A stretch of DNA of 44,014 nucleotides, from positions 1 to 44,014 of the IMG/VR virus record IMGVR_UViG_3300030102_003253, one strand, 5' to 3'. The notes below the pieces were generated by a model that was not told the DNA's origin, made no database searches, and saw nothing but the letters and a program-made list of their open reading frames with translations. The position numbers and the translations under genes are program-made. This document shows, in pieces, positions 5,699 through 38,512 of this stretch (within the stretch, counting starts at the first letter, position 1; the number at the start of each line of letters is the position of its first letter). Origin of the DNA: a virus.

Positions 5699-5930
5699 CC
5701 TTTTTTTCCTGACAGGTGGGGCAAACTAAAACCACCATCTGCTTATCCTCGTTTACTGCAACACGCCAAGTCATGTAATGTTCCCTGTTCTTTTTATTAA
5801 ACGGAACATTACAGACTGTGCAGGCATCTGGCAAAAGCCTAAACAAATTTACTTGCCTTTTAACTTCCTTGGCTAATTTCTTTTTAGCCTTTTTTTCTTT
5901 CTTTCTTTTTATTTGTCTTTTTAAACTCAT
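5691..5930 (-). CDS. Small basic zinc-finger-like protein, 79 aa
   Basis: I choose the ATG at 5930, which overlaps the polymerase stop as ATGA; the longer frame from 5978 would lie inside the polymerase gene. The N-terminal 30 residues are extremely Lys/Arg rich (SLKRQIKRKKEKKAKKKLAK). The C-terminal half has two CxxC knuckles, CTVC and CPTC, about 33 residues apart, suggesting a zinc ribbon. Translational coupling to DnaE suggests a replication or nucleic-acid role, but none is demonstrated. Confidence 0.7.
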   Translation of the reverse strand: MSLKRQIKRKKEKKAKKKLAKEVKRQVNLFRLLPDACTVCNVPFNKKNREHYMTWRVAVNEDKQMVVLVCPTCQEKKDD

Positions 5931-8900
5931 CCGATTAGTTTCCACCCATAACGCATAGAGCGTGTTGAAAAGCCCCATTGTTCTGAATAACTGAGCTTTG
6001 CCATATAAGGACGATTTGTGTAGATAATGTCCAAGCGTGGATCAACTCCCCAAACCTTGATAACAGATGTTTTAGAAGTGTTGTCGATCGCTCGCACAAT
6101 GTAAAAGTCTTTGCCCTTTCTGGTCTTCTTCTTAAGAACTTCACGAGGAATAAACCAAGCAGCGCCCAAGTCTGGATCAAACTCGCCTAATGGCGGGATG
6201 CAGTATTCATTCAATTGAGACTCTACGCGCTGGGACATAACCAAGTGGAATGGAAAAATACCAGCCAAGTCAACAAGGTAAGCAATCTTTTCTTCCTTAG
6301 TGAAGTCTCCTTCAGGTTCATACAACTCGATGTTCTCCAAGAACTTCTTTTTGTTCTTTGGACGTTCAACTGCAACAGCAGACCAGAAGTGTTTGAGACC
6401 TGAGAAGCGGTCATCCATTAGAGAGTTCAAAGCCTGTGTACGGCAAAGGACATCGATGCCCTTCTTGTTCAACTTGGAATAAACAATATCTTCGTTGAAC
6501 AAAAACTCTTCAATTGTATTGAAAGGTCTGTGAGCCATAATCTGCTCAACAGCTTTATCACCGAGACCTTTGATAGAAGTCAAAGGTTGAATCAAAGACT
6601 TGCCATCCTCTGCAATCTCCCAGACTTCGCCAGAACGATTGATGTCTGGATACTCTACTCCAAGTCCAATGCTACGCACAATGTTGATAGCCCGCTCTTT
6701 TCGTCCTTCTGGCTCTTTATCGAGGAATGCCGCAGCCCATTCGACAGGGAAGTAATTAAGAAGATAGGCGCACTGATAGCTAAGAATGCTGTAGCTAACA
6801 GCGTGGGACTTATTAAAACCATACCCTGAGAAATACTCAAATGTTTGCCAAAGCTTTTGTGCAGCTTGTTCTTTAATTCCTTTTTCGACGCAGCCGTCAA
6901 TAAACTTTTTACGAATCTTTTGTTTCTTTTCATAAGTCTTTCCTGTTGTTCCTTTCTTCGTCAAGAGTTTGCGAAGCATATTACCTTCGTCAAGCGTAAG
7001 ATCTTTACCCAACTTGTGAGCCAACAAAGCAATCTGCTCTTGGAAAATCAAGTAACCATAAGTCTCTTTGGTAACTTCTTTGACCAAGGGGTGCAGATAC
7101 TTGATGTCCTGTGGATTCTTCTTAGCCTTTACATAACTATTATGCACATTGGCTGAGAGAGGACCGGGACGATAAATCGAAGTAATCGCAGAGATGTCAA
7201 TGATAGAGCGTGGCTTTGCACGCTGACAGAAGCCTTGTGCGCCCTTCTCAGTAAACTGGAACACACCAGCCCAGCGACCCTTATGAAAGATATTCTCGTA
7301 GACTGCTTGGTCGTCCAAGTTCATCTTCTCGGGATGAAGGTTGTCGTCATACCATTCTTTGATCTGCTCAAACGTTGGATCTTCAATCCCGTGATGGCGA
7401 ACCAAAATATGACGGATTGCGCCCTCAAGCATTCGCAACGAAGCCAAGCCAAGAATATCAAACTTAATAAACCCAAGCGGCTCAAGGTGACGAACGTTCA
7501 TCCCTTCAGACCAAGGCGTCTGAATAACACCACCACTGTTGATTAGTGGCATGTGCCTATCCAGATTGTCGGCAATCACGACACCACCTGCGTGGCGTGA
7601 GATAGAGCGCAACTGTCCTGTCAACGTCTTGACGTGAGTCTCAACGTGTGGATACTTCCTGAGAAACTTCTTGAGCGAATCAGAGAACTCCATCAATTCT
7701 TCAAACGTTGGGTTGTAAACACCCGCAGTAATACCGTGACGTGCCTTAGCAAGAGGTGTAGCCTCCAAAACCATAACGCTTGTAACACGGTTGACCTCTG
7801 AAAAGTCAATACCATAGAACTTGGCGATATCCTTGATAAGAGAACGCAACTGCAAAGTATTGTAGTTGGAGATAGGAACAACCGTATCCTTGCCCCACTT
7901 CTCCATCAACTCCTCTTTCAAAGCCATTGGGTCTGCAACATCGTAATCAATGTCAGGATAATCCGTTGCGTCTTTGCGTAGGAATCGACTAAACAGAAGA
8001 CCATACTTTATTGGATCAATCCCTGTGATGCCAAGTACATACGCAACAAGAGAGCCAGCAGCACTGCCGCGCCCAGCGCCAACCAGTTGAGTTTTGGTAG
8101 CCTCATCACTCACCGCCTTCATTGTCAAAAAGTATTTACAAAAACCTCGGTCATCAATAACTTTAATTTCTTCCTTCAGCCTCTCGACATAATCTTTCTT
8201 CTTCGACAAACCAAGATCGGTCAGCCCTGCGATACAAAGACGAGTCAACTCATCAGTCGCTGTGCTTCCCTCGGGAACAACGAAGTCTGGCAAACGGACT
8301 GTTGTGTCTGGATAGAACGACTCAATGCGCTCGTGGGCAATGTGGTATGTGTTCTCCAAAGACTTACGCACCAAATCATCGTCGTATTCAATGCCCAACT
8401 CTTCAGACGAAGACTTGTAAGCCTGCCACATCTGATCGCCATTCTTGGGATAGAGTTCATACATCAAGTCTTCACGCTTCTCAGGCAGTGTAGACTCTGC
8501 GTAATCCGGCTTGGCTTTACCCAGCCAACCAAGTTGCTTGTAGAGTTCACGATCCTTGAACATCTCTGGACGAGGATAGTGGGCATCAGCAGTAGAAACC
8601 AACTCGGTGTTAGTCTCAGCCGCAGCCTTGATGATGTGCTGATTTACTTGATGCTGCTCGGGAATACGATTCCACTGAAGTTCACAATAGAACTTATCTC
8701 CAAAGATATCCTTGAACTCGTTGATAGTCTTGACCATTGCATTGTGAACAGCCTCTGGGCTTTCTTCGCGATTGTTCCAAAAGCACTTGGACAAAGGACC
8801 ACCGAGACAAGCAGAGGAAACAATAATTCCCTCGCTATGCTCACGCAACATCTTGTAATCAACGCGAGGAAAACGATAAAAGTTCTCACCCTCGTATGAC

Positions 8901-9355
8901 TTTGACACGAGACTAAAAAGATTGTTTAGACCTGTTTGGTTCTGAGCAAGGAGAACAAGGTGCGCTCGTCGGTTAAGGATGTGCTTGGCAGAGCGTTTAG
9001 ATGCAGACTCATCCTCAATAACGGGACCGTTGGCTTCCTTCTTCTTTTTCTTTTTTTGGTTCGCCAGATGCTCTTCCTTCTCAACCTTCCACTTTTCCAA
9101 GTCATCGATGAAGTAAGCCTCGATGCCAAAGATGGGTTTGAACTTCTTGCCCTCCTCGTTCATCTTCTTGGCGTGCAAAACCTGATGCGGTAGACCTGAC
9201 ATGTTGCCGTGATCTGTTAGGGCAAGTGCGTCACACCCGTTCTCCCAAGCAAAATCAATATGCTCGGACGGATAGCCCATTCCATCAAAAATGCTGTAAA
9301 CACTGTGACTATGCAGCCCAACAAATGGAATGCTCGATACTGTACGCTGTGTCAA
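5927..9355 (-). CDS. dnaE: DNA polymerase III alpha subunit (C-family, DnaE type)
   Basis: A 1142-aa bacterial-type replicative DNA polymerase. The PHP domain (residues about 10-270) keeps all expected metal-ligand positions by eye: H15, H17, D24, H49, E79, H132, C183, D257 and H259. The palm has GAGRGSAAGSLVAYVLGITG and the two-Asp motif PDID (D468, D470), with the third acidic residue in FIKFDILGL (D633). HAGGVVIA, IYRPGPL and the GYGFNKSHAVSYSILSYQCA region are present. A helix-hairpin-helix (SIKGLGDKAVEQI) precedes the C-terminal part. The start is TTG at 9355, placed five bases after AGGAGG; no ATG fits better. A Lys-rich insert lies near residues 100-108. It probably replicates the phage genome. 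No separate DnaQ proofreading gene is in the window. Confidence 0.96.
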   Translation of the reverse strand: MTQRTVSSIPFVGLHSHSVYSIFDGMGYPSEHIDFAWENGCDALALTDHGNMSGLPHQVLHAKKMNEEGKKFKPIFGIEAYFIDDLEKWKVEKEEHLANQKKKKKKEANGPVIEDESASKRSAKHILNRRAHLVLLAQNQTGLNNLFSLVSKSYEGENFYRFPRVDYKMLREHSEGIIVSSACLGGPLSKCFWNNREESPEAVHNAMVKTINEFKDIFGDKFYCELQWNRIPEQHQVNQHIIKAAAETNTELVSTADAHYPRPEMFKDRELYKQLGWLGKAKPDYAESTLPEKREDLMYELYPKNGDQMWQAYKSSSEELGIEYDDDLVRKSLENTYHIAHERIESFYPDTTVRLPDFVVPEGSTATDELTRLCIAGLTDLGLSKKKDYVERLKEEIKVIDDRGFCKYFLTMKAVSDEATKTQLVGAGRGSAAGSLVAYVLGITGIDPIKYGLLFSRFLRKDATDYPDIDYDVADPMALKEELMEKWGKDTVVPISNYNTLQLRSLIKDIAKFYGIDFSEVNRVTSVMVLEATPLAKARHGITAGVYNPTFEELMEFSDSLKKFLRKYPHVETHVKTLTGQLRSISRHAGGVVIADNLDRHMPLINSGGVIQTPWSEGMNVRHLEPLGFIKFDILGLASLRMLEGAIRHILVRHHGIEDPTFEQIKEWYDDNLHPEKMNLDDQAVYENIFHKGRWAGVFQFTEKGAQGFCQRAKPRSIIDISAITSIYRPGPLSANVHNSYVKAKKNPQDIKYLHPLVKEVTKETYGYLIFQEQIALLAHKLGKDLTLDEGNMLRKLLTKKGTTGKTYEKKQKIRKKFIDGCVEKGIKEQAAQKLWQTFEYFSGYGFNKSHAVSYSILSYQCAYLLNYFPVEWAAAFLDKEPEGRKERAINIVRSIGLGVEYPDINRSGEVWEIAEDGKSLIQPLTSIKGLGDKAVEQIMAHRPFNTIEEFLFNEDIVYSKLNKKGIDVLCRTQALNSLMDDRFSGLKHFWSAVAVERPKNKKKFLENIELYEPEGDFTKEEKIAYLVDLAGIFPFHLVMSQRVESQLNEYCIPPLGEFDPDLGAAWFIPREVLKKKTRKGKDFYIVRAIDNTSKTSVIKVWGVDPRLDIIYTNRPYMAKLSYSEQWGFSTRSMRYGWKLIG

Positions 9356-23525: not shown

Positions 23526-24360
23526 CAGTTTCTTGCAATAGTCTGTTTTGAACTGCGGTCGTTGAATTCCTGACATAAACTATCTCGTTTTCAAACGGCA
23601 CGCTGAACACTCTAACGGAAGTTCTTACGTCTTCCTCTTTGAATTCTTTAAAATTGTTTACTATCTCGTTATGAAGTTCTGTGTCTTCGTTGATCCTCTT
23701 TTCAGGAATCCCGTAAAGCACCTCCCTTTCTCTTGTAAATAATAGATTACCAAGTTTTGTGACGTTTGTCAAGGAAAAATCACAATACGAAATAGAAGAA
23801 ATTACTGCGTTCTTAATTTTTTGTTCGCTGATTTCAAACACGGGGTCTTCTGACGATAGCCACTGAAAGGTCTGCCAATGTTGGGCACACGTCTCTGCCA
23901 TCTGTTTTTTGTAGTTACCTAGAAGAACCGCCGTGGAAATCTTTTTTACCTCCGCTAAATCAAAAATTGTAAACTCTTTGAACACATGAGCGCGGGTCTT
24001 CTCTTGAAGAGCGCCGTGAACTAAGTTGTGCAACTGTTTGCCTGTCTCGCTCAGAGCCTCAAGGTCGGGTTGCAGATAAACAATGTCTACATTCTTTTTT
24101 ACCAGAAGTTGTAACACTTGTAAAGAGATAAGTGACACAGGCTCAGAACCTGATACCACAAACGTTACATCGTCTGCCACAGTGGACAAATACTTTTTCA
24201 AACCCTTGATCGAATCCTCGTATCTTTCGATGTCTTTAAACACTGGAATCTTAAACTCGGCTCCTGTGTGTGCAAAAGTATAAATCGAAAACTCTGGGTA
24301 TTTTTGAAGGTAGTTTGCGAAGTTCAACGCTACATCACCTACTGCTACTATGCTTTTCAT
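23503..24360 (-). CDS. Unknown protein with possible tubulin/FtsZ-like Rossmann layout
   Basis: A 285-aa protein. It starts with a strand-turn-helix (SIVAVGDVALNFANYLQKYP) like nucleotide-binding GTPase or Rossmann proteins. A second core part reads DDVTFVVSGSEPVSLISLQV then LLVKKNVDIVYLQPDLEALS and GKQLHNLVHGALQEKTRAHV; strand, Gly/Ser loop, helix, strand and long helix in this order resemble the FtsZ/tubulin GTP domain, but the GGGTGTG signature is degenerate. I see no certain nucleotide-binding residue. Its ATG overlaps the polymerase-like gene's stop (ATGA), so the two are co-translated. Could instead be an unrelated Rossmann protein. Confidence 0.6.
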   Translation of the reverse strand: MKSIVAVGDVALNFANYLQKYPEFSIYTFAHTGAEFKIPVFKDIERYEDSIKGLKKYLSTVADDVTFVVSGSEPVSLISLQVLQLLVKKNVDIVYLQPDLEALSETGKQLHNLVHGALQEKTRAHVFKEFTIFDLAEVKKISTAVLLGNYKKQMAETCAQHWQTFQWLSSEDPVFEISEQKIKNAVISSISYCDFSLTNVTKLGNLLFTREREVLYGIPEKRINEDTELHNEIVNNFKEFKEEDVRTSVRVFSVPFENEIVYVRNSTTAVQNRLLQETVDKQGKQ

Positions 24361-25541
24361 TTAATTTCCCTCATGTCGCCGTAATTCTTACCAAGGTTCA
24401 TGTGAAGGTCGAACTTGTAATCATCGAAGTGTGAAAGGACAGAAACAATGTCATCGATTCTATCTTTTTCTCTTACATCGAAGTCAAGAACCACACTATC
24501 GTGAATAAAGAAAGCAATGTTAGACTTTAAGCCCCATTCCTTTAGTTTATCAGATAGTTTAGCGATGTTGATCAGGAATATATCATTGAACGTGCTTTGC
24601 ACAAGATAGTTTAGTGCTTTCTCCTCCCCCACTTCTATCTTTCTACCCAACGGATTGTTGATTCTACCGTTGAAATAGTATTTTTCAAGGATTTCCTGTC
24701 TACTAAATAGTTTTTCAAGAGCGTCATTCGTTTTTCTTGGGTCGTATAACCAAGAGAAGAATGCTACTTTGCTCTCATCTCTTGTTAGTTTACCATCAAA
24801 TGCGTTTTTGTTAATCCATTCGTGGAGGTCTCCAGAGGGGATTGGACGACCTGTTAGATAAAACAAGGTGGCGACTTCCGCAGAGACTACATCGAACTCA
24901 AGAAAAGCAGTTCTATAAGGCTCTATAACGCCGCGCATTTTTTTAGGCAGAGTAAGTATAGGAAAACTATTTGGAAGCGTTGTAAGGCGACCTGTGCGCG
25001 TTCCAAACTGGTTATAGATAATGCTTGGTTTGGCTTGTAACTTGCGGTACAAGTCACGACCTTTTTGAGTGGCGATCTGAAGTCGCACGTTGGTTCCATT
25101 TAATTTTAATTTTTGAGTGCTAATATTCTTGATTAGCCTTTCTGTTTTAATAATTGAAGCGTAGTTGTCTGGCTCTGGAAAGTTGTCCAAGACGTGCTGT
25201 GTGATTTTATTTTTTATTTCTGCGTGTTGTTTGAGAAACCTGTGTGGAACCAACTCGTAAAAGCAAAAGTTTTCAATGGTCAGACCAACGTGGTAAAAAG
25301 ACTTGAGCATAGCCTTCATACGGTTTGATGAGGCGTCCCATTCTGCTTTTAGGTCTTCTGGACAGATCTGATCTAGTTTTTTACCTGCGGTGTAAAGTTC
25401 TGCAAACTTAACGTGTTCTGGCAAATAAGTGTGATAGTTCCAAGTTCCCGTGCCTTCGCTTGGGATTTGGTCAAAATGAAGTGCGCCGTCGTAATAAGAC
25501 CCCACACAAGTTTCTTTATCGTCGAGTGTTTGAAAAATCAT
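24357..25541 (-). CDS. Small family-A-like DNA polymerase (palm/fingers only)
   Basis: A 394-aa protein with the three Pol I motifs: TRTGRLTTLPN before motif A; motif A EFDVVSAEVA (D217, S220, E222); DLHEW; motif B R254, K258, F262, Y266 in RDESKVAFFSWLYD, where the usual final Gly is Asp; NYLVQSTFND matching NxLVQGTAAD; motif C IHDSVV (D348), with Ser replacing the usual Glu. There is no 5'-3' or obvious 3'-5' exonuclease domain; the N-terminal 150 residues are unclear. It could be a short-patch or lesion polymerase beside the C-family DnaE. The ATG has no Shine-Dalgarno sequence and lies seven bases after a strong -10, suggesting a leaderless message. Confidence 0.8.
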   Translation of the reverse strand: MIFQTLDDKETCVGSYYDGALHFDQIPSEGTGTWNYHTYLPEHVKFAELYTAGKKLDQICPEDLKAEWDASSNRMKAMLKSFYHVGLTIENFCFYELVPHRFLKQHAEIKNKITQHVLDNFPEPDNYASIIKTERLIKNISTQKLKLNGTNVRLQIATQKGRDLYRKLQAKPSIIYNQFGTRTGRLTTLPNSFPILTLPKKMRGVIEPYRTAFLEFDVVSAEVATLFYLTGRPIPSGDLHEWINKNAFDGKLTRDESKVAFFSWLYDPRKTNDALEKLFSRQEILEKYYFNGRINNPLGRKIEVGEEKALNYLVQSTFNDIFLINIAKLSDKLKEWGLKSNIAFFIHDSVVLDFDVREKDRIDDIVSVLSHFDDYKFDLHMNLGKNYGDMREIK

Positions 25542-29610: not shown

Positions 29611-30336
29611 CTACTGATTTGGTCCAACGTTGGCTCGTGCGCCAGCGGCGACATTTGTGGCAGGAAGTCTTGCATCATTCAGCAAACCAGAGTCAGCGCC
29701 CCGTCCCAACTCACCGGCTTGGATGCCTTTTCTGTCCACCGCTTCGTTTCGTTTCTGTTTCACGGGGAAGTTATTTTCGTTTCCTAACGCAAAGCCGTTT
29801 CCTTTAAAGCCGGGGCGCTCTTTGTGGATTACATTTAATCCAAATGAAAAATCCCAAGAGCGGAAAAACACCTCTTTGTTGCCAAAATCATCATAACTAA
29901 AGCCAGCCTCTCCGATGTTTGGTGTTAGCGAAATGCCATCGAACCAACCAAACAAAAAGCCATTATTGGTGTCATCTCTTATAATGTTGCCAAATTTGAC
30001 ACCCATTAGCGGAGAACTTTTTGGTATTGTGTCATCATCAAATCTCGGATATAATGATTGGACTAATTTATTTAAGTCTTTTTGATAAAGATAAGATTCT
30101 TCTACTGAAGCAGCAACTATCTTGAACGAACAATTGATTTTTCTAGATGTGCCAATAAAATTACCAATAGGGTCTTGAATCCCGTAATATTGTTCAGAGT
30201 TCCAATTAGATGTAAAGTCGTCTGATAGGTCTGTTATAAACGCCGGAAACGTTACGATTTGACCGCCTTCGCCAAGTTGTGGAAGAAAAAATTCCACTTG
30301 CAGTTTTCTTCGTTTATTTTGAATTGGACTCGTCAT
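29611..30336 (-). CDS. Baseplate/tail structural protein, 241 aa
   Basis: A 241-aa protein. FPAFITDLSDDFTSNWNSEQ followed by IQDPI and GTSRKINCSFKIVA matches a pattern I know from marine myovirus baseplate proteins (strand ITDF-S-x-x-W-N-S-E, then GTxRxIxxSFxV). DLNKLVQSLYPRF and GVKFGNII follow. The last 60 residues are low-complexity and Ala/Asn rich. No Shine-Dalgarno sequence precedes the ATG; an ACTATTTAT-type motif does, three bases upstream. Confidence 0.68.
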   Translation of the reverse strand: MTSPIQNKRRKLQVEFFLPQLGEGGQIVTFPAFITDLSDDFTSNWNSEQYYGIQDPIGNFIGTSRKINCSFKIVAASVEESYLYQKDLNKLVQSLYPRFDDDTIPKSSPLMGVKFGNIIRDDTNNGFLFGWFDGISLTPNIGEAGFSYDDFGNKEVFFRSWDFSFGLNVIHKERPGFKGNGFALGNENNFPVKQKRNEAVDRKGIQAGELGRGADSGLLNDARLPATNVAAGARANVGPNQ

Positions 30337-30339
30337 ACT

Positions 30340-30348
30340 ATAAATAGA
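30340..30348 (-). promoter_or_regulatory. CTATTTAT motif
   Basis: Coding-strand TCTATTTAT, three bases before the ATG of the 241-aa gene. Member of the recurring set; the first base differs from ACTATTTAT. Confidence 0.4.
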
Positions 30349-30369
30349 TACGCATTTGTTTTTTATACG

Positions 30370-32412
30370 TTAATTAGCAGTTAGTGCGCCGTTGACCGTC
30401 CTGAGAATCTTTCTGTCAATCACTCTACCGTCTAGAGTTAAGTTGACCGTGATGTCTCCTCCACCACCTCCAGCGCCAACTCCAGTCGCAGTCGTTGTTG
30501 TTGCGTTGACTAGTGCTGTCATTTCGCGCACAGCGGGTAGGGATGCATCATTTAGTGCCTCAACCACTTCCGTAACATTAGATGCGAATCTGGCAAAACC
30601 AGCCATTCCGGTGAAAGAAACACCCTGTGCCTTTTCAAGCAACATGCCAATCCCTTCGGCAACTTTAAAAATTCCAAAGGCAATTGTTCCTACGACTGCG
30701 GCAATTGTGCCAAAAACTAAAGCCAAACTTAGCAGTACTGGTATTGCCAACGTGCCACCAGCGCCAATAGCAGCAAGTCCTGCGCCAGCCTCTATCCCAC
30801 CGGCAAGTATTCCTGCGCCAGCGGCAGGCGCTGTTAAACCAAGAGTGGTGAATGTTCCACCAAACATGGTAAACAAACTAATGGCTCCACCGATTGCTGC
30901 GGCTAGACCGATACCAAATTGTATCGCTGTTGTGCTTATGTTGTTTAAACTGGATGCAACGTCTTGTGATATTGTTTTAAAAGTTTTGCCCATCTCTAGT
31001 GTTGCTGCTTTTGTGGCGTTCATTGCGGCTTCTTGTGCGCCCATAACCTTTCTATTTTGTTGTTCTAATCCTGATAAAGCAGCAGTGTTGTCTCTTGTTG
31101 TATCGGTTGAATCGCCAGTAACCTCATTCTGCATACCCATTATTTCGGATATATTTAGCCCAACAGTTTGTTCTAACAGCCTGATTCGGCTTGCATCTAA
31201 ATTATTTAAACCACCTTGGGCACGAATAGCCTCCTGAATAGTCTTAATCCTGTCGGCTTGAGACATCCTTTGCAATTCGATTCCGCTTATTTGGGCACCT
31301 AAAACTATGTTTAATTGTTGTGCTGCTTGGGCGGCTTCGGAGAAGGTATCAAAACGTTCACCAATATCGAATAACTTGCCTAACGAAACGCCAGTTGCTT
31401 CAGATATTTGTTTTAATTTAGCAAACTCTTTTACTGCGGCTGGACCGATTGCTTTAATTCTACTGCCAAATTGCACGAACTCTTGGGCGGCTTTGCCTAC
31501 TGGCTCGCCAAGGTCGCGTGAAATCTGAACCAAGTCTCCGAGGCGGTCTTGTGCTTCAGCAGCGCTCAATCCTTCCTTGACCAACGCATCACTTAAAACT
31601 GTGCTTGCGCTGCCAACATCTAAACCATTTTTGGCAAGCAACGCTAAACGGTTTGCAAATTCCGGTCCTAGTTGTCTTGCGGCTCGGGATGAAGTGTCTG
31701 TCAGTGTAGCAAAGGCTGTGGCGGCATCGGCTGCCGTTCCACCAGCCCTAATAAGTTCTTGGCTAATTCCTGCTGTAAGTTGTTTTGCTCTATCGGCAGA
31801 AAGACCAAATGAAACAAGTTGTTGGTCAGCGGCGATTAATTCATTTTTTGTTTCAAGGGCGTTGTTAACAGTTAGACCAAGAATATTGCTGAAACTAAAG
31901 ACTTGTCCTGCGACACTGCCTGCGCCTCGACCAAATGCTTTAAAAGCATCGCCTAAGCCTTTTCCGTCTTTGACAGAATTTGATAAAACTTTTCCAAAAC
32001 TTTTAAATTGAGCAACAAATGGACTAGTGTTTGATTCCAAGATGCCCATTTGTTGAGCCAAGTTTTCAAAATTGCCTGCGGTGGTGGCTGTTAGATCATC
32101 GATATCGCCTTGGATCTTTTTCTGTTTTTCTAGGGCTTTGTTTTGTCTCTCAAGTTGTCCAGTAAGTCTCTGTTGCTCTACGACGGCTTCTTTAAGTTGG
32201 GTTACCTGTTCTTCGTAGGCTTTACCCGATTTTTTAGAATTTGCAAGTTGTTCGCTTAATTTTGCAACTAACTGATCAGCGAAAGAAGCCTCGATTCTTA
32301 GCTTCTCGTTCAACATGTCTTGTTCCGAGTTGAACTCTTTTAATACATCATTCCTGACTTTTAATAAGTCAAGTTCTTCTTTTAGGGTTGTTACTCGTTG
32401 GTTTTCAGCCAT
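30370..32412 (-). CDS. Tail tape measure protein
   Basis: A 680-aa tape measure. The N-terminal 110 residues are a charged coiled coil (LKEELDLLKVRNDVLKEFNS). The centre has Ala/Gly-rich helices (SFGLSADRAKQLTAGISQEL). Residues about 515-600 are very hydrophobic (FGIGLAAAIGGAISLFTMFG), typical of the membrane-active part. GGGGG near residue 655 marks a flexible end. At about 0.15 nm per residue the tail would be near 100 nm, by the usual rule. Position after the frameshifted assembly gene fits. Confidence 0.88.
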   Translation of the reverse strand: MAENQRVTTLKEELDLLKVRNDVLKEFNSEQDMLNEKLRIEASFADQLVAKLSEQLANSKKSGKAYEEQVTQLKEAVVEQQRLTGQLERQNKALEKQKKIQGDIDDLTATTAGNFENLAQQMGILESNTSPFVAQFKSFGKVLSNSVKDGKGLGDAFKAFGRGAGSVAGQVFSFSNILGLTVNNALETKNELIAADQQLVSFGLSADRAKQLTAGISQELIRAGGTAADAATAFATLTDTSSRAARQLGPEFANRLALLAKNGLDVGSASTVLSDALVKEGLSAAEAQDRLGDLVQISRDLGEPVGKAAQEFVQFGSRIKAIGPAAVKEFAKLKQISEATGVSLGKLFDIGERFDTFSEAAQAAQQLNIVLGAQISGIELQRMSQADRIKTIQEAIRAQGGLNNLDASRIRLLEQTVGLNISEIMGMQNEVTGDSTDTTRDNTAALSGLEQQNRKVMGAQEAAMNATKAATLEMGKTFKTISQDVASSLNNISTTAIQFGIGLAAAIGGAISLFTMFGGTFTTLGLTAPAAGAGILAGGIEAGAGLAAIGAGGTLAIPVLLSLALVFGTIAAVVGTIAFGIFKVAEGIGMLLEKAQGVSFTGMAGFARFASNVTEVVEALNDASLPAVREMTALVNATTTTATGVGAGGGGGDITVNLTLDGRVIDRKILRTVNGALTAN

Positions 32413-32419
32413 GGCTCAG

Positions 32420-32737
32420 TTACTTGATTGGGTATTTAATACCAGTGGCTCTTTCAAAACTTCTGATTGCTTGGTTTAGACCCACCTTACTTTTGTAAGT
32501 CTTAGGGTCGGTGAGACCATAAGTTTTAGCGGCGTCCATGTAAGCACGTTCGCCTTGGAGAGCGCCCATAAAAGCAGCAATTTGTGAAGGCAAGCCACGG
32601 AGTTTAATGTTTGAACTACTGGAAAGGGGAGCGAAGCCCATCTGTGCAATCATGAATTTCATCTGCGCTCCAAATGAAGCCATCCAAGATTCATCTATTC
32701 TTTTTTCGTTAAGGTTAATAACAACGGGTTCTTTCAT
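32420..32737 (-). CDS. Small tail-region protein, 105 aa
   Basis: A 105-aa protein between the frameshifted assembly gene and the tape measure. It begins EPVVINLNEKRIDESWMASF and continues with a Gln/Met-rich helix (GAQMKFMIAQMGFAPLSS), then AFMGALQGERAYMDAAKTYG. The place and size suggest a tail chaperone or minor virion part. AGGAG lies eight bases before the ATG and overlaps one arm of a possible hairpin (32741-32769). No family recognised. Confidence 0.7.
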   Translation of the reverse strand: MKEPVVINLNEKRIDESWMASFGAQMKFMIAQMGFAPLSSSSNIKLRGLPSQIAAFMGALQGERAYMDAAKTYGLTDPKTYKSKVGLNQAIRSFERATGIKYPIK

Positions 32738-32740
32738 AAT

Positions 32741-32769
32741 AACTACTCCTGCTCCTAGAGTAAGTAGTT
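32741..32769 (-). promoter_or_regulatory. Possible hairpin over ribosome binding site
   Basis: Coding-strand AACTACT (32763-32769) and AGTAGTT (32741-32747) can pair, enclosing a 15-base loop; the 3' arm overlaps the AGGAG of the 105-aa gene. Pairing could lower its translation. Confidence 0.35.
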
Positions 32770-32791
32770 GTGTTTTTTACTTTCCTACCCG

Positions 32792-32989
32792 TTAAAATCC
32801 TTGAGTTCGTTTACCAGAGGCTTTTTTCATGGCTTTGTTCTTTTCCTCAATTTCTTTTTGCAATCTCTCAAACATATATTGTCGAAGAGCAATGGGAAAA
32901 TTGTATGCCTCGGTAAAACTAATGCCAGCATAATAAACAAGGTAGAAAAGCATATCGTACACTTGTTTACCGTATTCATCACTTAGACC
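32792..32989 (-). CDS. Frameshift extension of the tail-assembly protein (65 aa)
   Basis: This open frame has no plausible start or Shine-Dalgarno sequence of its own, yet its translation (SDEYGKQVYDMLFYLVYYAG, then SFTEAYNFPIALRQYMFERL, then a basic tail ending TQGF) looks like a real folded helical protein rather than a shadow. It is reached from the end of the 33824-32979 gene by a +1 shift at a run of seven T, giving a 343-aa fusion. A late GTG or the ATG at its 13th codon could start a shorter independent product, but neither has a good ribosome site. A sequencing error adding one T is the other explanation. Confidence 0.65.
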   Translation of the reverse strand, partial: GLSDEYGKQVYDMLFYLVYYAGISFTEAYNFPIALRQYMFERLQKEIEEKNKAMKKASGKRTQGF

Positions 32990-33824
32990 AAAAAAAGTCT
33001 GCCGTGAGCGGCATCATGACCTCCTGTGTGTTTCCACACTGTAGACAGGCATGTTCAAAATTAATATCCACATCTGGACAAGCGGCTTCATAAACTTTTC
33101 TTAAGTGCCTACAATCTGATGCAGGTATTCTCGATAGACAAGCACGAATCTGTGTCCTATCCTCTACATTGTTAATACTAACAACCATAAGTTCCATCAT
33201 ATAAAGAAGTCTTTCTTGTTCTACTTTATATTTTTTTCTCTTCTTCATGGTTTCGTCAAGACTCTTCTCGGCGTGACCATCAAGGATCTTAAATTCTACT
33301 TCCAAGTTGGTTGCGGGTAGGGTTGTTGTGTAAGTCCCTCTCTCTGTTTTTGTAATCCCTTCTGTAAGGGTTTCTTTGGCACCAACTTCTCGCAGGTCAA
33401 GATGTTTTTCTTCTGGAGTTCCACAGGCTGTGCAGGTAACTTTTACTGGGTAGTATGGTCCTAAGCCAGAAATTCTTGTTGCAAACAAGATGGCGTTTTT
33501 GTCGCCCACTAAAAAATCTTCTAGTTTTAAACTCTTGTCTACTAAAACGCTTTTTAAAAGTTTGTCTATTGCAACGCCCTGACGCAAATAACTTTCGTTA
33601 ATAAGAATATCTTCTTCTTTTGCTGTCATTACTTTTATTTCTACTTTATCAACACCATGTAAAGAATGACCCTCTGGGTAAAATTCACCAGCGGAGGGCA
33701 ACTCTACAATTTCTGTGGGTGTTGGAAAGTCTAAAATGCTATTAGTGGGAGGGGGTGTTGCGCTTCTTGACTGTACGCTAGGTTCTAAGCTGGAACCCAA
33801 CTTTGCCTCATTTCTTGCACTCAT
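32979..33824 (-). CDS. Tail/baseplate assembly protein with zinc knuckles (gp26/chaperone-like)
   Basis: A 281-aa zero-frame product. After a disordered N-terminus come the domain LPSAGEFYPEGHSLHG and KVEIKVMTAKEEDILINESY, then CTACGTPEEKH (about residue 135) and CLQCGNTQE near the end, two CxxC knuckles that may bind one zinc. MMPLTADFFWSK ends the zero frame. The KEEDIL segment and zinc knuckles resemble the gp26/gp51-like baseplate or tail assembly proteins of T4-like marine phages. It lies directly after the tube gene and before the tape measure, the usual position of frameshifted tail chaperones. GAGG precedes the ATG. Confidence 0.72.
   Translation of the reverse strand: MSARNEAKLGSSLEPSVQSRSATPPPTNSILDFPTPTEIVELPSAGEFYPEGHSLHGVDKVEIKVMTAKEEDILINESYLRQGVAIDKLLKSVLVDKSLKLEDFLVGDKNAILFATRISGLGPYYPVKVTCTACGTPEEKHLDLREVGAKETLTEGITKTERGTYTTTLPATNLEVEFKILDGHAEKSLDETMKKRKKYKVEQERLLYMMELMVVSINNVEDRTQIRACLSRIPASDCRHLRKVYEAACPDVDINFEHACLQCGNTQEVMMPLTADFFWSK
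32987..32999 (-). other. Candidate +1 ribosomal frameshift site
   Basis: Coding strand GAC TTT TTT TGG T, with seven T at 32990-32996. A Phe tRNA on the second TTT can slip one base forward onto another TTT, and the next codon becomes GGT. The zero-frame stop comes three codons later. Confidence 0.6.
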
Positions 33825-33848
33825 TATACCTCTTATTTAGTTGTGTGA

Positions 33849-34349
33849 TTATCCTTCGTACTCAGCCCAATCGTATTGGATTGACACTGAGCATTCAATT
33901 AGACCCTCGTCTGAGTAACCGTGTTGACCAAAGTCTGCACTGGTTAGAAAGGCGTTGGTGAGGGTCCAAGTTGAAATGATGTTCCCGGCTGTATCAACCT
34001 GAGAAATGATGATGTTGCCCAAAGCAGAAGACAATGTGGCTTTGGATAATGTAGATTTATCATTTGCTGTTGCAGGTTGACGAACACCGGATGCCTTTAA
34101 TAAGTCAATCAATTTCTTTGCCACTGAACTATCGCCAACTACATCATAGATAGTAAATTCTACTGGTGTCCAAGTAACTTTACCGGGGTAGTAGAACTTG
34201 TATTGTGTATAGTCAGCCTCCATTGTACCAATTTCCAATGCAGGTAGCTTTGCTGATTTGATAAGAAAAGGCTCTGCGATGGTGGGCATAGTTACCGTGT
34301 ACTGGTAACTTTTCTTAGGCTCTAACTGTGCTGAATTCCAAAATGCCAT
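33849..34349 (-). CDS. Tail tube protein (gp19-like)
   Basis: A 166-aa tube protein. The pattern WNSAQLEPKKSYQYTVTMPT, FLIKSAKLPALEIGTMEADY, GKVTWTPVEFTIYD and the C-terminal IECSVSIQYDWAEYEG is typical of gp19-type tubes in myoviruses. Length equals T4 gp19 closely (163). Hexameric rings of it stack to form the tube inside the sheath, whose gene is directly upstream. AAAGGAG precedes the ATG. Confidence 0.9.
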   Translation of the reverse strand: MAFWNSAQLEPKKSYQYTVTMPTIAEPFLIKSAKLPALEIGTMEADYTQYKFYYPGKVTWTPVEFTIYDVVGDSSVAKKLIDLLKASGVRQPATANDKSTLSKATLSSALGNIIISQVDTAGNIISTWTLTNAFLTSADFGQHGYSDEGLIECSVSIQYDWAEYEG

Positions 34350-34365
34350 TTTTTATTGTCTCCTT

Positions 34366-37173
34366 TTACTCAAATGTGGCTGCTGAATTTGTGATTACAA
34401 AATCAAGTGCGATAAATTCGATTGACTTTGCTGGCTTCAAGAAGACCTTTGCGTAAAGGACATTTCTATCACGAAGCTCTGGTGTCGTTGTTGTCTCGTC
34501 TAGAACTAGTTTGTAGTCTTCTAGACCAAAGCCTGCCTTGATATCGCGCAAGATTGGCTCTGCTTTTGAGAGGAAGTTGTTCCAAGTGTCTGGGACATTC
34601 TGCTCAAAGAGAAGATCATTGGCTACTGCCGTGATTTGGCGCTTGGTGAAAATCAACAAGCGGCGTACATTAATTCTATCCAATGCTGAAGCGTCTGTCT
34701 GCAAGGTCTTTTGACCAAGAATGACAACCCCCTCGTTAGGGAATGTTCCGATTGGATTGATGTTTGCTTCGTAGAGGTCGTCGCGATCCTTTGAACGGAG
34801 TCTGTCGGCGACACCTAGAACTCTTAGACCACCTGCGCCCTTAGTCAAACCACCTCTTGTAAAGCCTGCTGGTGCGAACCAAGGCTCTGCATTTCTATCG
34901 GTGAAAGAGAATGCTCCAATTGCAACAACTGATGGTGGAAGCCATACTGTGCTGTCGGAGAAACTATCCTGAACTCTTACCCAAGGGTAGAAAGCGCATC
35001 CGAAACTTGTGTTAATTGCTCTGTTGTTTAGATTGTTAACAGTTGCGGTGACCGAACCAACGCGAGATGAGAATCCATCACTGGTTTCTGATGTTGGCTG
35101 GTAGCCGCCCTTAAGATCAATAACTGCGAGGCAATCACCACGGTCTTGAGCAAGGTCAAGCAACTTGTCTGTAACGGTAGTTGTTGTAACACCGGGAATA
35201 GAAAGAATGTTTGTTTGTACAACCTCGGGATCTTTGACTGAATCAATTGCCACTGTCATTGCATGGTAAGCGTAACTTGAACGCTCACTTTCACCGTCCA
35301 TGTTGCGATTTGCAAAGGGATCTTTCTCGGTGATATCCATGGCGTCGTAGCCACCAAACATTGGCATTGTGAAGCCCTTTGGTGCCAAAGCGCCGGTGAG
35401 AATTGAGTAAGCACCGCTAACTGCTGTGAGCGAGGTGCCGCCCTGTCTTGAACCACTGGAGTAGGTCATATTACCATCTGACTCAACCAAATCATCTAGT
35501 GTAAAGATGTGTGAGAACTCTGTGAGTGCGTTGAGACTGCTGAAGTTGTTTAATGAAGCTGGCTTTGTTCTTAGGAAGTCTGGGATTGAATCATCAAAGA
35601 TTGTTGAGCCAGTTCCTCTTGTAGCCGTCAACCCAAAGAACGCTGCCTGTGGACTGCTTACATCACCTACGGCGGTCGTTGAACGCAATGGGATGCTTGG
35701 GAATTTAAACACTACTGGACCAACTTCGTTTCCTAGAACCAAGTCGCCTGATGAGGCTAATGGGAAGAAAGTCACGTTTGGTTTGGCTGCGTTTGGCAAA
35801 GTGCCGGTGGCAGATAAGAAATCGTTTGCAGCGACCAAAGCCGAACCAGATGCCAAAGTGACATTCTTAAACTTTGATGGTCCAAAGAATCCGTATGGTA
35901 GCAATGAGGAATCAATTGTTCCATCATCAACTGCTTGAGCCATTGACATACGAACGTAACTTGAGTTATTTGGGTATTGACCGTATGTTTTGTAAACTCT
36001 TTCGTTTTCGTCCCACTCAACATTCTGGTCACCAATCTGAGCAGCAATGTAATTTGTGGATGCGGGGTTAAGGTTTAGATTATTAAATCTTTCCACCTCG
36101 CGGAGTTTTGCGTCGTTGTCATCCATTCTACGGATAATAACGTTAAACGTACCGAACTGACCGGGGCGTTTTGCTGGTCGAATGTTCTCGATCGAAATCT
36201 TGATAGCACCCTGATCGTATTCTCCGGTCTGTAGACCAACGAACTTGAATAGTTTGGTTGCACGGTCATTCTTACCAGCATCAAAGCCGTCTGAACTTGC
36301 CAACAAGTCCTGAGAAATTACATCTCCAGTTTCGGCATTAACAAATGTTCTTTGAAAGTCAGCGCCGTCAACAGTACCATTGTCGAGTGGCACAGCCATT
36401 GCAAATGCAATGTTACCAGCACCGCCAAGGTCTTCGGTAATCGCTCTATCGAACGTCTCACCTAAGAAGTATTCTTCTTGATTGGCTGTTGGCGTAATAG
36501 CCGTCGTGGTTCTTGTTGGGTTGGTGTTCAATACCGAACGAATGTACTTTCTAGAAGTTCTGTCGAAGTTTACTGCTGTCTCTAGTGTTCCACCACCACG
36601 CACAATACGAAGAGTAATTTCGTTGTTTGTTGTTTGCATCAACTGCCCTGAGCCTGTTACGGCAACAGCGTTGGGAACGGTACCACTAGTCTGAACATGC
36701 GTGTCAGCATCGCAGTAAATGATTGCACCCAAAGTGCCTGTGTGGTTACCAGCGGAAGCAGAATTAAATACGAATAGACCGTATGCTCCGCCGCCAGTGT
36801 TGCTGAAGTCGGCTAATTTCCAACCTGCTTCGCCACCAGATGACTTGTTAGGATGCTCTTTACCAATTAGGCGAACAAAATTAATAGTTGAACTATTTCT
36901 TAACCATGCTTGCGCTGCATAGGTGCCATATGTCGCACAACCAAAGGCGGGATTTCTAAATGCATCTACGTTCTCTGTACCGGCGATTGGTGGTCCGAAA
37001 ACATCCACAAACTCTTCAAACGAGTCTACCTGTACAGGGCGCAATGCCGGTCCTCTTAGAGAACGACCAATAATTGTTGGTCCTTCGGCGGCTGGCTCTG
37101 ACGGTAATTGTGAATTATCGATTTCATTGATGAAAACGCCGGGAGATACAAATTTAAACTTTTTTACTGACAT
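34366..37173 (-). CDS. Contractile tail sheath protein (gp18-like)
   Basis: A 935-aa sheath protein. N-terminal VSPGVFINEIDNSQLP is the sheath hallmark, followed by GPTIIGRSLRGPALRPVQVD and the F-E-E-FVDVFGPP segment. The C-terminal core contains PPSVVAIGAFSFTDRNAEPW, FAPAGFTRGG, NPIGTFPNEGVVILGQKTLQ, INVRRLLIFTKRQI and a final beta strand (AKSIEFIALDFVITN). It is much longer than T4 gp18 (about 660), with extra beta-rich, Thr/Ser-rich inserts in the middle (residues about 130-620) that likely face outward. A marked ACTATTTAT motif and GGAG precede it. Confidence 0.95.
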   Translation of the reverse strand: MSVKKFKFVSPGVFINEIDNSQLPSEPAAEGPTIIGRSLRGPALRPVQVDSFEEFVDVFGPPIAGTENVDAFRNPAFGCATYGTYAAQAWLRNSSTINFVRLIGKEHPNKSSGGEAGWKLADFSNTGGGAYGLFVFNSASAGNHTGTLGAIIYCDADTHVQTSGTVPNAVAVTGSGQLMQTTNNEITLRIVRGGGTLETAVNFDRTSRKYIRSVLNTNPTRTTTAITPTANQEEYFLGETFDRAITEDLGGAGNIAFAMAVPLDNGTVDGADFQRTFVNAETGDVISQDLLASSDGFDAGKNDRATKLFKFVGLQTGEYDQGAIKISIENIRPAKRPGQFGTFNVIIRRMDDNDAKLREVERFNNLNLNPASTNYIAAQIGDQNVEWDENERVYKTYGQYPNNSSYVRMSMAQAVDDGTIDSSLLPYGFFGPSKFKNVTLASGSALVAANDFLSATGTLPNAAKPNVTFFPLASSGDLVLGNEVGPVVFKFPSIPLRSTTAVGDVSSPQAAFFGLTATRGTGSTIFDDSIPDFLRTKPASLNNFSSLNALTEFSHIFTLDDLVESDGNMTYSSGSRQGGTSLTAVSGAYSILTGALAPKGFTMPMFGGYDAMDITEKDPFANRNMDGESERSSYAYHAMTVAIDSVKDPEVVQTNILSIPGVTTTTVTDKLLDLAQDRGDCLAVIDLKGGYQPTSETSDGFSSRVGSVTATVNNLNNRAINTSFGCAFYPWVRVQDSFSDSTVWLPPSVVAIGAFSFTDRNAEPWFAPAGFTRGGLTKGAGGLRVLGVADRLRSKDRDDLYEANINPIGTFPNEGVVILGQKTLQTDASALDRINVRRLLIFTKRQITAVANDLLFEQNVPDTWNNFLSKAEPILRDIKAGFGLEDYKLVLDETTTTPELRDRNVLYAKVFLKPAKSIEFIALDFVITNSAATFE

Positions 37174-37199
37174 ATTTTGTTCACTCCTAATTTGTCTCT

Positions 37200-37208
37200 A
37201 TAAATAGT
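37200..37208 (-). promoter_or_regulatory. ACTATTTAT motif
   Basis: Coding-strand ACTATTTAT about 26 bases before the sheath ATG. Member of the recurring set; function inferred. Confidence 0.5.
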
Positions 37209-37230
37209 GCTTATTTGCTTGAAAAGTAAA

Positions 37231-38040
37231 TCACTCCTCAACAAATGATTTAGCACCGCCTCTGATTTGGGGAGTGGCACCGACTATTGTCCTTTCTTTA
37301 TTAAATTTAATATTGACTGCATTTTGAGACGATTTAATAACCGCGTCATCAAGATTCTCGATTCTAGGGAATAACGCGCCCCTTACTTCTATTACGAACG
37401 ATGTCTCAAAAAATCTTTCGTCCGCATCAAGGTTTTCTGACACCTTGTCAAAAGAAAACTGGTCTGGTATAGTGGCATAATAAGTATGACCTTCATTTTC
37501 AAGTTTTACACCCCGGTAGTTGTTCGCTGTGATGAAGCCATTTAAAATTTGGTTCATGTCTGTGAGGTAACTTGTTTTAACTGTAATTCCGTATGACGCC
37601 ATGACTGATATCACATTGTTAGAAAACAATGTTTCGTATACAACTTTCTTGTTGTCAAATACCCTGTTGGATACCCCAAATTTTTTTCTTGCGGCTGCGT
37701 TTGCGAATTTTTGTGTTTCAACTGGTAATATTCTTCTGGCAATCGGGAAGTTGTTTGAACCGGGAGTGAACGGAAATCCCTCGTTGTCCCTTTCTATTGA
37801 TTCTCTGTATACGGTCAACAAAGGATAAATTAAAGTCTCACTGTCATCTCTTAATTCTTTTGTTTTCTTTATTTGATATGCCCTCTCGGCAGAAGACCAC
37901 AAAATAGGCACCTTTTCTTGTTCACCACTTCTTACGGTGTACAATCTTAAATCATTTTTAATAAAGTTAAAAAGGGCAGTATCCATAGTCTCTATGGAAG
38001 ATTCAACAAATACCTGTTCGCTTACTCTTTCATTAGCCAT
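37231..38040 (-). CDS. Neck/tail-terminator-like protein, 269 aa
   Basis: I choose the ATG at 38040, preceded by AGAGA purines; the frame up to 38076 lies inside the neighbour. The protein has EKVPILWSSAERAYQIKKTK and TLIYPLLTVYRESIERD, a pattern seen in marine myovirus neck proteins. Its size and its place just before the sheath match T4 gp15, the tail terminator, so I infer that role. It overlaps the preceding gene by eight bases. Confidence 0.68.
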   Translation of the reverse strand: MANERVSEQVFVESSIETMDTALFNFIKNDLRLYTVRSGEQEKVPILWSSAERAYQIKKTKELRDDSETLIYPLLTVYRESIERDNEGFPFTPGSNNFPIARRILPVETQKFANAAARKKFGVSNRVFDNKKVVYETLFSNNVISVMASYGITVKTSYLTDMNQILNGFITANNYRGVKLENEGHTYYATIPDQFSFDKVSENLDADERFFETSFVIEVRGALFPRIENLDDAVIKSSQNAVNIKFNKERTIVGATPQIRGGAKSFVEE

Positions 38041-38512
38041 TAAATAAATTCTCTCTTGCCTTAATGCATGTTGCATTTACTTCGTATTTCTGTCCGTCTT
38101 GACCAAACAATCGTTTTGAGCCACGAGTTTCTACAATTTCATAGTAGTCGCCGTCATAGTGAACAAAATCCCCAATTCTAACAATTAGATTTTGATCCTC
38201 GGTCAAACGTTTTCTGTGAAAATAAACATTAATTCTTTGTATTTTATCAACGCCCGCTTTAGTTTGTAGAATATCAGAGGCTTCTGTTTCCACTCTGGCG
38301 TATACCCTAACGGGTGGAAGAAAGTTCTTTTCTTTGCTCTCGCCATAAATTGGGTGAAAATTTGAACTATCAATGTCAATTGCATAATAAGCAACGACTT
38401 GCCCTACGACGTTTTCAATTAATTCTGTATTTACCTGACGTACTAGATCCCTTTCTTTCTTTCCTACGAATAGAGGGGGAGGTGGAGCGTCTGGACGTGT
38501 AAATTTAGCCAT
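38033..38512 (-). CDS. Neck/head-closure-like protein, 159 aa
   Basis: A 159-aa protein with a Pro-rich start (FTRPDAPPPPLFVGKKERDL), then AYYAIDIDSSNFHPIYGES and a beta-rich end (VRIGDFVHYDGDYYEIVETR). The VGDFVxYDGxYYEI strand pair is typical of head-closure or stopper proteins at the neck. Position between connector and terminator agrees with gp14-type function. Not proved by sequence alone. Confidence 0.65.
   Translation of the reverse strand: MAKFTRPDAPPPPLFVGKKERDLVRQVNTELIENVVGQVVAYYAIDIDSSNFHPIYGESKEKNFLPPVRVYARVETEASDILQTKAGVDKIQRINVYFHRKRLTEDQNLIVRIGDFVHYDGDYYEIVETRGSKRLFGQDGQKYEVNATCIKARENLFNG

Follow-up and report, generated by a model that had tools for sequence, protein, structure and literature searches.

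The tail assembly chaperone gene of the window (a complete IMG/VR record of 44,014 bases) carries what comparison with its relatives identifies as a conserved programmed +1 recoding signal of a T4-like tail assembly chaperone, and this signal is most likely ribosomal. The whole explanation put forward here, which we regard as quite probable, is a P-site +1 frameshift on UUU_U, aided by a hairpin and yielding a short and a long chaperone (TAC-N and TAC-NC); within it, we infer the ribosomal shifting itself, its efficiency, the role of the hairpin and the chaperone function from the sequences.

Judged by its gene content, the window comes from a T4-like contractile-tail phage; family matches outside the tail region include the major head protein, UvsX, a DnaB-like helicase and DNA polymerase. 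The order of genes on the minus strand is tail sheath (34366..37173; phrog_23, E=3.6e-66), tail tube (33849..34349; phrog_4542, E=6.8e-16), the chaperone gene, an open reading frame of 105 aa (32420..32737) and the tape measure protein (30370..32412; phrog_167, E=3.2e-7), i.e. the gene in question lies between the tail tube and tape measure genes, as was looked for in a chaperone. The 105-aa ORF has no family match in domain or phrog searches. A blastn search with 5 kb of the window against phage records returned no match, and the Rfam scan of positions 30000..38500 and the tRNA scan were both empty. Elsewhere, the C-terminal third of a 394-aa protein (24360..25541, minus strand) matches part of the DNA polymerase family phrog_17, and a 1142-aa DNA polymerase is encoded separately at 5927..9355.

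The zero-frame product (281 aa, 32979..33824, minus strand, a small correction to the first-pass annotation) is predicted to be the short, T4 gp26-like chaperone, TAC-N. Its sequence matches PF12322, the T4 gp26 family (E=3.7e-11, 43.6 bits with a cut-off of 24.5; a match to this family is found in 21 of 22 relatives), and phrog_150, labeled 'baseplate hub' (E=1.3e-13), and the best named Foldseek match of its structure model is the baseplate hub subunit of phage SP-15 (TMt 0.81). The gene ends GAC TTT TTT TGG TCT AAG TGA TGA (protein end ADFFWSK), with the seven-T run at 32996..32990, the slip site TTT TTT TGG at 32988..32996, the last sense codon and the stop TGA at 32979..32984 and a second in-frame TGA directly after it, at 32978..32976. 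The zero frame had been said to end three codons past the T run; it does end shortly past it, with two sense codons between TGG and the stop. The predicted 65-codon extension in the +1 frame (TAC-C, GLSDEYGKQVYDML...TQGF) is present as claimed at 32989..32795, with its stop codon at 32794..32792, and begins at the GGT that overlaps TGG, while the -1 frame is closed within two codons of the T run (TTG GTC TAA). Further upstream in the same gene, TTTT is met in frame three more times, therefore UUU_U alone cannot suffice as a signal.

The extension, folded separately from the zero-frame part, is predicted to be helical (pLDDT 90) and aligns with the C-terminus of five gp51-type sequences (hhalign: 86%, E 5e-6). 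Direct matches of extensions to phrog_634 are weak (4 of 29, best E 0.0055), as are the structural matches to the model of P-HM1 gp51 (TMt 0.81, Foldseek E 0.49) and to a tail assembly chaperone of a Microbacterium phage (Foldseek E 1.3); the Foldseek search of the PDB returned no match. The extension thus appears, from sequence, to resemble the C-terminal part of gp51, and the two products would therefore be the pair TAC-N/TAC-NC. T4 gp51 itself matches both PF12322 and phrog_634, which agrees with gp26 and gp51 being the short and the long form, respectively, a relationship proposed by Vladimirov, Gautam and Davidson in 2022, according to PMC12846349 and PMC10885494.

Searches by protein similarity identified seven relatives, six of them long enough to read; at 39-77% identity, these still have the slip site and the two open frames. 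An IMG/VR DNA scan for TTTTTTTGG followed by the first extension codons found at least 120 contigs, and all 120 listed carry the chaperone gene with both frames. A protein-profile scan that did not require the T run yielded, among the matches listed, 80 viral and 9 MAG-derived loci; 596 of the 600 candidate stretches listed encode relatives, and the +1 extension is found in all 87 of the listed relatives that are readable to the stop, with T7GG in 81 of them. The pooled set comprises 191 distinct sequences, part of which were chosen by pattern, and statements meant to be unbiased rest on the profile scan and on complementary codon-pattern scans. The same layout is found in two cultured phages, Microcystis phage Mel-JY01 (T7GG) and Flavobacterium phage immuto (TTT CTT TGG). 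As to the deposited annotation, the long chaperone of Mel-JY01 appears as two ORFs, and the records of immuto, GXN1 and SP-15 lack the extension wholly or for the most part.

The early zero-frame stop follows two or three codons past TGG in 187 of 191 relatives, and stop codons interrupt both alternative frames across the extension in at least 190 of 191. The -1 frame also stops after two codons in 100 of 114 diverse relatives, because the first Leu of the extension is nearly always encoded by CTA or CTG; since the zero and -1 frames both end at once, only the +1 frame leads on. Such an arrangement is, on this comparison, far beyond chance. The pooled dN/dS of 15 close pairs is about 0.03 for the core of the extension and 0.08-0.09 for the zero frame, with 51, 10 and 201 changes at the first, second and third codon positions, all of which points to strong purifying selection on the extension. 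With every pair included, the medians (0.59 and 0.75) were dominated by saturated pairs, and the pooled close-pair estimate is used instead. The alignment proposed in the first-pass annotation as a check thus came out in its favor, with both frames conserved, the T run nearly always kept and the extension under purifying selection. Of the two findings in relatives that it had named as contrary evidence, an intact uninterrupted gene was absent from the set read, and a separate start for the extension is not conserved.

Sequencing and assembly errors typically fall in homopolymers, and an error of one T, or decay of the gene, was considered as an alternative. However, the arrangement is found in about 190 distinct contigs and in isolates, the T run itself recurs in more than 160 distinct contigs, the extension also follows sites that lack seven T, and its dN/dS is 0.03. 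Error or decay, to which we attach next to no probability, is already refuted by the variants in which the run is broken; the third contrary finding named in the first-pass annotation, a true run of six T, fails on these grounds as well.

The codon pattern at the site, these variants included, is the sharpest evidence on the mechanism. Among the 191 relatives, the second Phe codon of the slip site is TTT in 187, CTT in 4 and TTC in none, while the first is TTT in 171 and TTC in 20; the share of TTC among Phe codons in the chaperone genes overall is about 22%, and TGG follows the Phe pair in 190 sequences. Pattern scans of IMG/VR found at least 120 family members with TTTTTTTGG and 22 with TTCTTTTGG, whereas all 12 matches to TTYTTCTGG in the collection lie outside the chaperone family. 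The +1 extension is kept behind the broken runs TTC TTT TGG and TTT CTT TGG, and CUU_U stands in place of UUU_U in four members, one of them the Flavobacterium isolate immuto. In the more distant +1 phages SP-15, GXN1, LIS04 and LR756508, Phe UUU stands before a pyrimidine (U or C). A P-site +1 slip needs exactly YUU before U, with a move from UUU to UUU or, as in prfB, from CUU to UUU, and a second codon that is TTT or CTT and never TTC fits it. The first-pass annotation had tRNA-Phe move off the second TTT onto the TTT that overlaps it, and the codon variation supports this very slip.

The same variants bear on two other ways of reaching the extension. If RNA polymerase dropped one U at the T run, with a hairpin in its exit channel, the shortened mRNA would encode the long form directly. 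The layout of the site, in which U7 begins no more than 3 nt past a hairpin and the two together score as terminator-like, is compatible with such transcriptional slippage, and there is a precedent in Roseiflexus IS630, where one base is lost at T5C5 behind a 5' stem-loop (PMC5009743). Slippage outside such a context, however, as a rule takes a run of roughly nine identical bases (PMC5009743), the extension persists where the run is broken (TTCTTTTGG, TTTCTTTGG) and dependence on a homopolymer is therefore not observed, and polymerase slippage does not predict that a break is tolerated at the first codon but not at the second (TTC); we consider it unlikely. A -2 ribosomal shift would reach the same frame with one extra Phe (DFFFGLSDEY). 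On T7 the P-site tRNA-Phe can indeed re-pair two bases back, and phage Mu uses a -2 shift (PMC5009743), but on TTC TTT TGG, behind which the extension is kept, the tRNA would come to lie on UCU with a mismatch in the middle position, and synthetic upstream hairpins stimulate forward and attenuate backward shifting (PMC6321510). The -2 shift is hence, in our estimation, very improbable.

It is equally improbable that the extension is a separate gene with its own or a coupled start, as might be suggested by the annotation of Mel-JY01 as two overlapping ORFs, by the separate gene for gp51 in T4, by the conserved SD-like GGAGGT nearby and by the presence, in 80 of 114 diverse relatives, of ATG, GTG or TTG in the +1 ORF upstream of the GL.DEY motif. 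Against this, the remaining 34, the window among them, have no start codon before the conserved GL.DEY (in the window, the +1 stretch that leads from the preceding stop to GLSDEY contains no ATG, GTG or TTG), the conservation of GL.DEY sets in at the very first codon past the slip, the positions of the starts are not conserved, and GGAGGT is not accompanied by a conserved +1-frame start at the right distance. The original observation that the extension has no usable start of its own thus holds for the window and, as regards a conserved start, for its relatives.

The region just upstream of the slip site is under synonymous constraint at codons -8 to -1, which is absent further upstream. Glu(-7) is encoded by GAG in 78 of 81 sequences (34% elsewhere), Pro(-5) by CCG in 78 of 112 (15% elsewhere), Ala(-2) by GCG in 39 of 64 (14% elsewhere) and Asp(-1) by GAC in 65 of 68 (29% elsewhere). 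CGG stands just before the slip site in 56 of the 78 members with Pro CCG, compared with 3 of 36 without it, and a short hairpin of 3-5 pairs can form in two registers, in which CCG pairs either with the CGG at the slip site or with a nearer CGG, as in the window. There, the stem-loop TGCCG-CTCA-CGGCA (33000..33013, minus strand), a candidate +1 stimulator, ends 3 nt before the T run. The hairpin is also kept in members with TTC at the first codon.

Folding tests, the comparative ones inflated by the relatedness of the sequences, gave for nucleotides -24 to -1 a mean energy of -5.46 kcal/mol vs -2.20 in synonymous shuffles and about -4.2 in column-preserving shuffles, none of 200 of which was as low (z -7.7 vs -0.7 to -2.7 in control windows); restricting the test to the 37 most diverse members reduces the contrast (z -3.7 vs at most -2.4 in controls). 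The hairpin emerges only in tests that hold the protein sequence fixed: RNAalifold found no consensus structure over -36 to +40, and single-sequence shuffles of the hairpin were not significant. Downstream of the site, the mean z over 80 diverse members is -0.5, with no clear 3' stimulator. In experiments of Huang and colleagues on 70S ribosomes, a hairpin placed upstream, next to the E site, stimulated +1 shifting and attenuated -1 shifting; their hairpins were synthetic, the stable one had 12 pairs, and +1 stimulation was seen only without release factor 2 (PMC6321510). As the hairpins of the chaperone family have only 3-5 pairs vs these 12, the analogy makes a role of the hairpin as +1 stimulator plausible only. 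The SD-like GGAGGT of the window (33019..33024, minus strand), 22 nt 5' of the T run, lies about 6 nt further upstream than the copy of the relatives at the Glu codon -7, and its spacing fits neither a prfB nor a dnaX stimulator, nor any start codon.

Taken as a P-site +1 shift, the signal would work as follows. Most ribosomes would stop at the early TGA and release TAC-N, the gp26-like short form. In some, the P-site tRNA-Phe would leave UUU and pair again, one base further 3', with the UUU that overlaps it while UGG occupies the A site, probably driven forward by the small hairpin behind the ribosome, against the E-site codon, and these ribosomes would read on in the +1 frame to produce TAC-NC, which combines the gp26-like part with the gp51-like C-terminal domain. 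Like gpG and gpGT of phage lambda, the two proteins would bridge the tape measure and the tail tube in assembly. Two further points count against the +1 model: the A site would be occupied by the sense codon UGG rather than a stop, which leaves the cause of ribosome slowing unexplained, and as a +1 site UUU_U is far weaker than the CUU_U of prfB, a gene in which UUU_U is found in a minority of species (PMC5009743).

Frameshifting as a means to make two chaperones is already known in phages, almost always by a backward step, and the few programmed +1 frameshifts of bacteria and phages are best known at stop codons, whereas the chaperone site has a sense codon. The signal occurs in hundreds of uncultured T4-like phages from seas and lakes and in the culturable relatives Mel-JY01, immuto and, more distantly, SP-15, which makes it testable, and with UUU_U, CUU_U and UUC UUU U nature already supplies a set of mutants of the site. 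Relatives that shift by -1 at the same Phe codons allow one to study how the direction of a recoding site can change, and if it is the hairpin that sets it. The annotation of the isolate records examined, in which the extension is missing or split off, can be corrected.

Among known systems, the closest are the T4-like phages themselves, for which Vladimirov, Gautam and Davidson reportedly described frameshifted tail assembly chaperones (gp26/gp51) in 2022 (Virology 566:9-15). The first-pass annotation rightly put chaperone frameshifts as usually -1, but its claim of novelty for T4-like tails goes somewhat too far, as frameshifted chaperones of such phages had been described by 2022; the versions of cyanophages, HTVC008M and KVP40 read here are -1, and our analysis would add to that report the +1 direction, the upstream hairpin and the breadth of the family. 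The window gene shares with these genes the PF12322 family, the place before the tape measure, the Phe-Phe slip codons and a homologous C-terminal extension. In P-SSM2, S-PM2, HTVC008M and KVP40, however, the extension is in the -1 frame relative to the gene, the site being U_UUU_UUC or U_UUU_UUU, and T4 has two genes, whereas the window gene has its extension in the +1 frame, a -1 frame that stops after two codons and a hairpin at the slip site, and so does not belong to the -1 type of the Kyanoviridae and KVP40. In P-SSM2 and S-PM2, GGAGGG precedes U_UUU_UUC by about 9 nt, the distance at which a dnaX-type -1 stimulator lies, and folding of the -1 site stretch of P-SSM2 gave no hairpin there. 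XacN1 and RAS14 also look -1, and in the tree of zero-frame proteins they are placed among the +1 phages, with Kyanoviridae and KVP40 across the midpoint. Thus, the direction of the shift appears to have changed at least once while the Phe-Phe codons stayed constant; the tree has long branches and an arbitrary root, and the number of changes is uncertain.

The likeness to lambda gpG/gpGT and other -1 chaperones lies in the short and long products of one gene before the tape measure, and the differences in direction, slip site and protein family. The tail gene of phage Mu (-2) reaches the same relative frame by a backward slip that the codon variants do not support here. The tail chaperone of the haloarchaeal myovirus HSTV-2, very likely +1 (PMC5009743), shares the direction, the type of gene and the contractile tail, and differs in belonging to an archaeal virus. 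E. coli prfB (CUU_UGA) has in common with the chaperone gene the P-site slip on YUU_U, with CUU_U itself in four relatives, and a duplex just upstream. In prfB, however, the stop UGA occupies the A site, the shift serves autoregulation and the duplex is an SD pairing 3 nt away, while the chaperone gene has the sense codon UGG, no autoregulation and an mRNA hairpin in a near position, its GGAGGT lying about 20 nt or more upstream instead of the roughly 3 nt before the shift codon seen in prfB. We see an even chance that a hairpin against the E-site codon replaces the SD duplex of prfB in a widespread natural +1 element with a sense-codon UUU_U slip, in a family that has switched between +1 and -1 on the same Phe-Phe codons.
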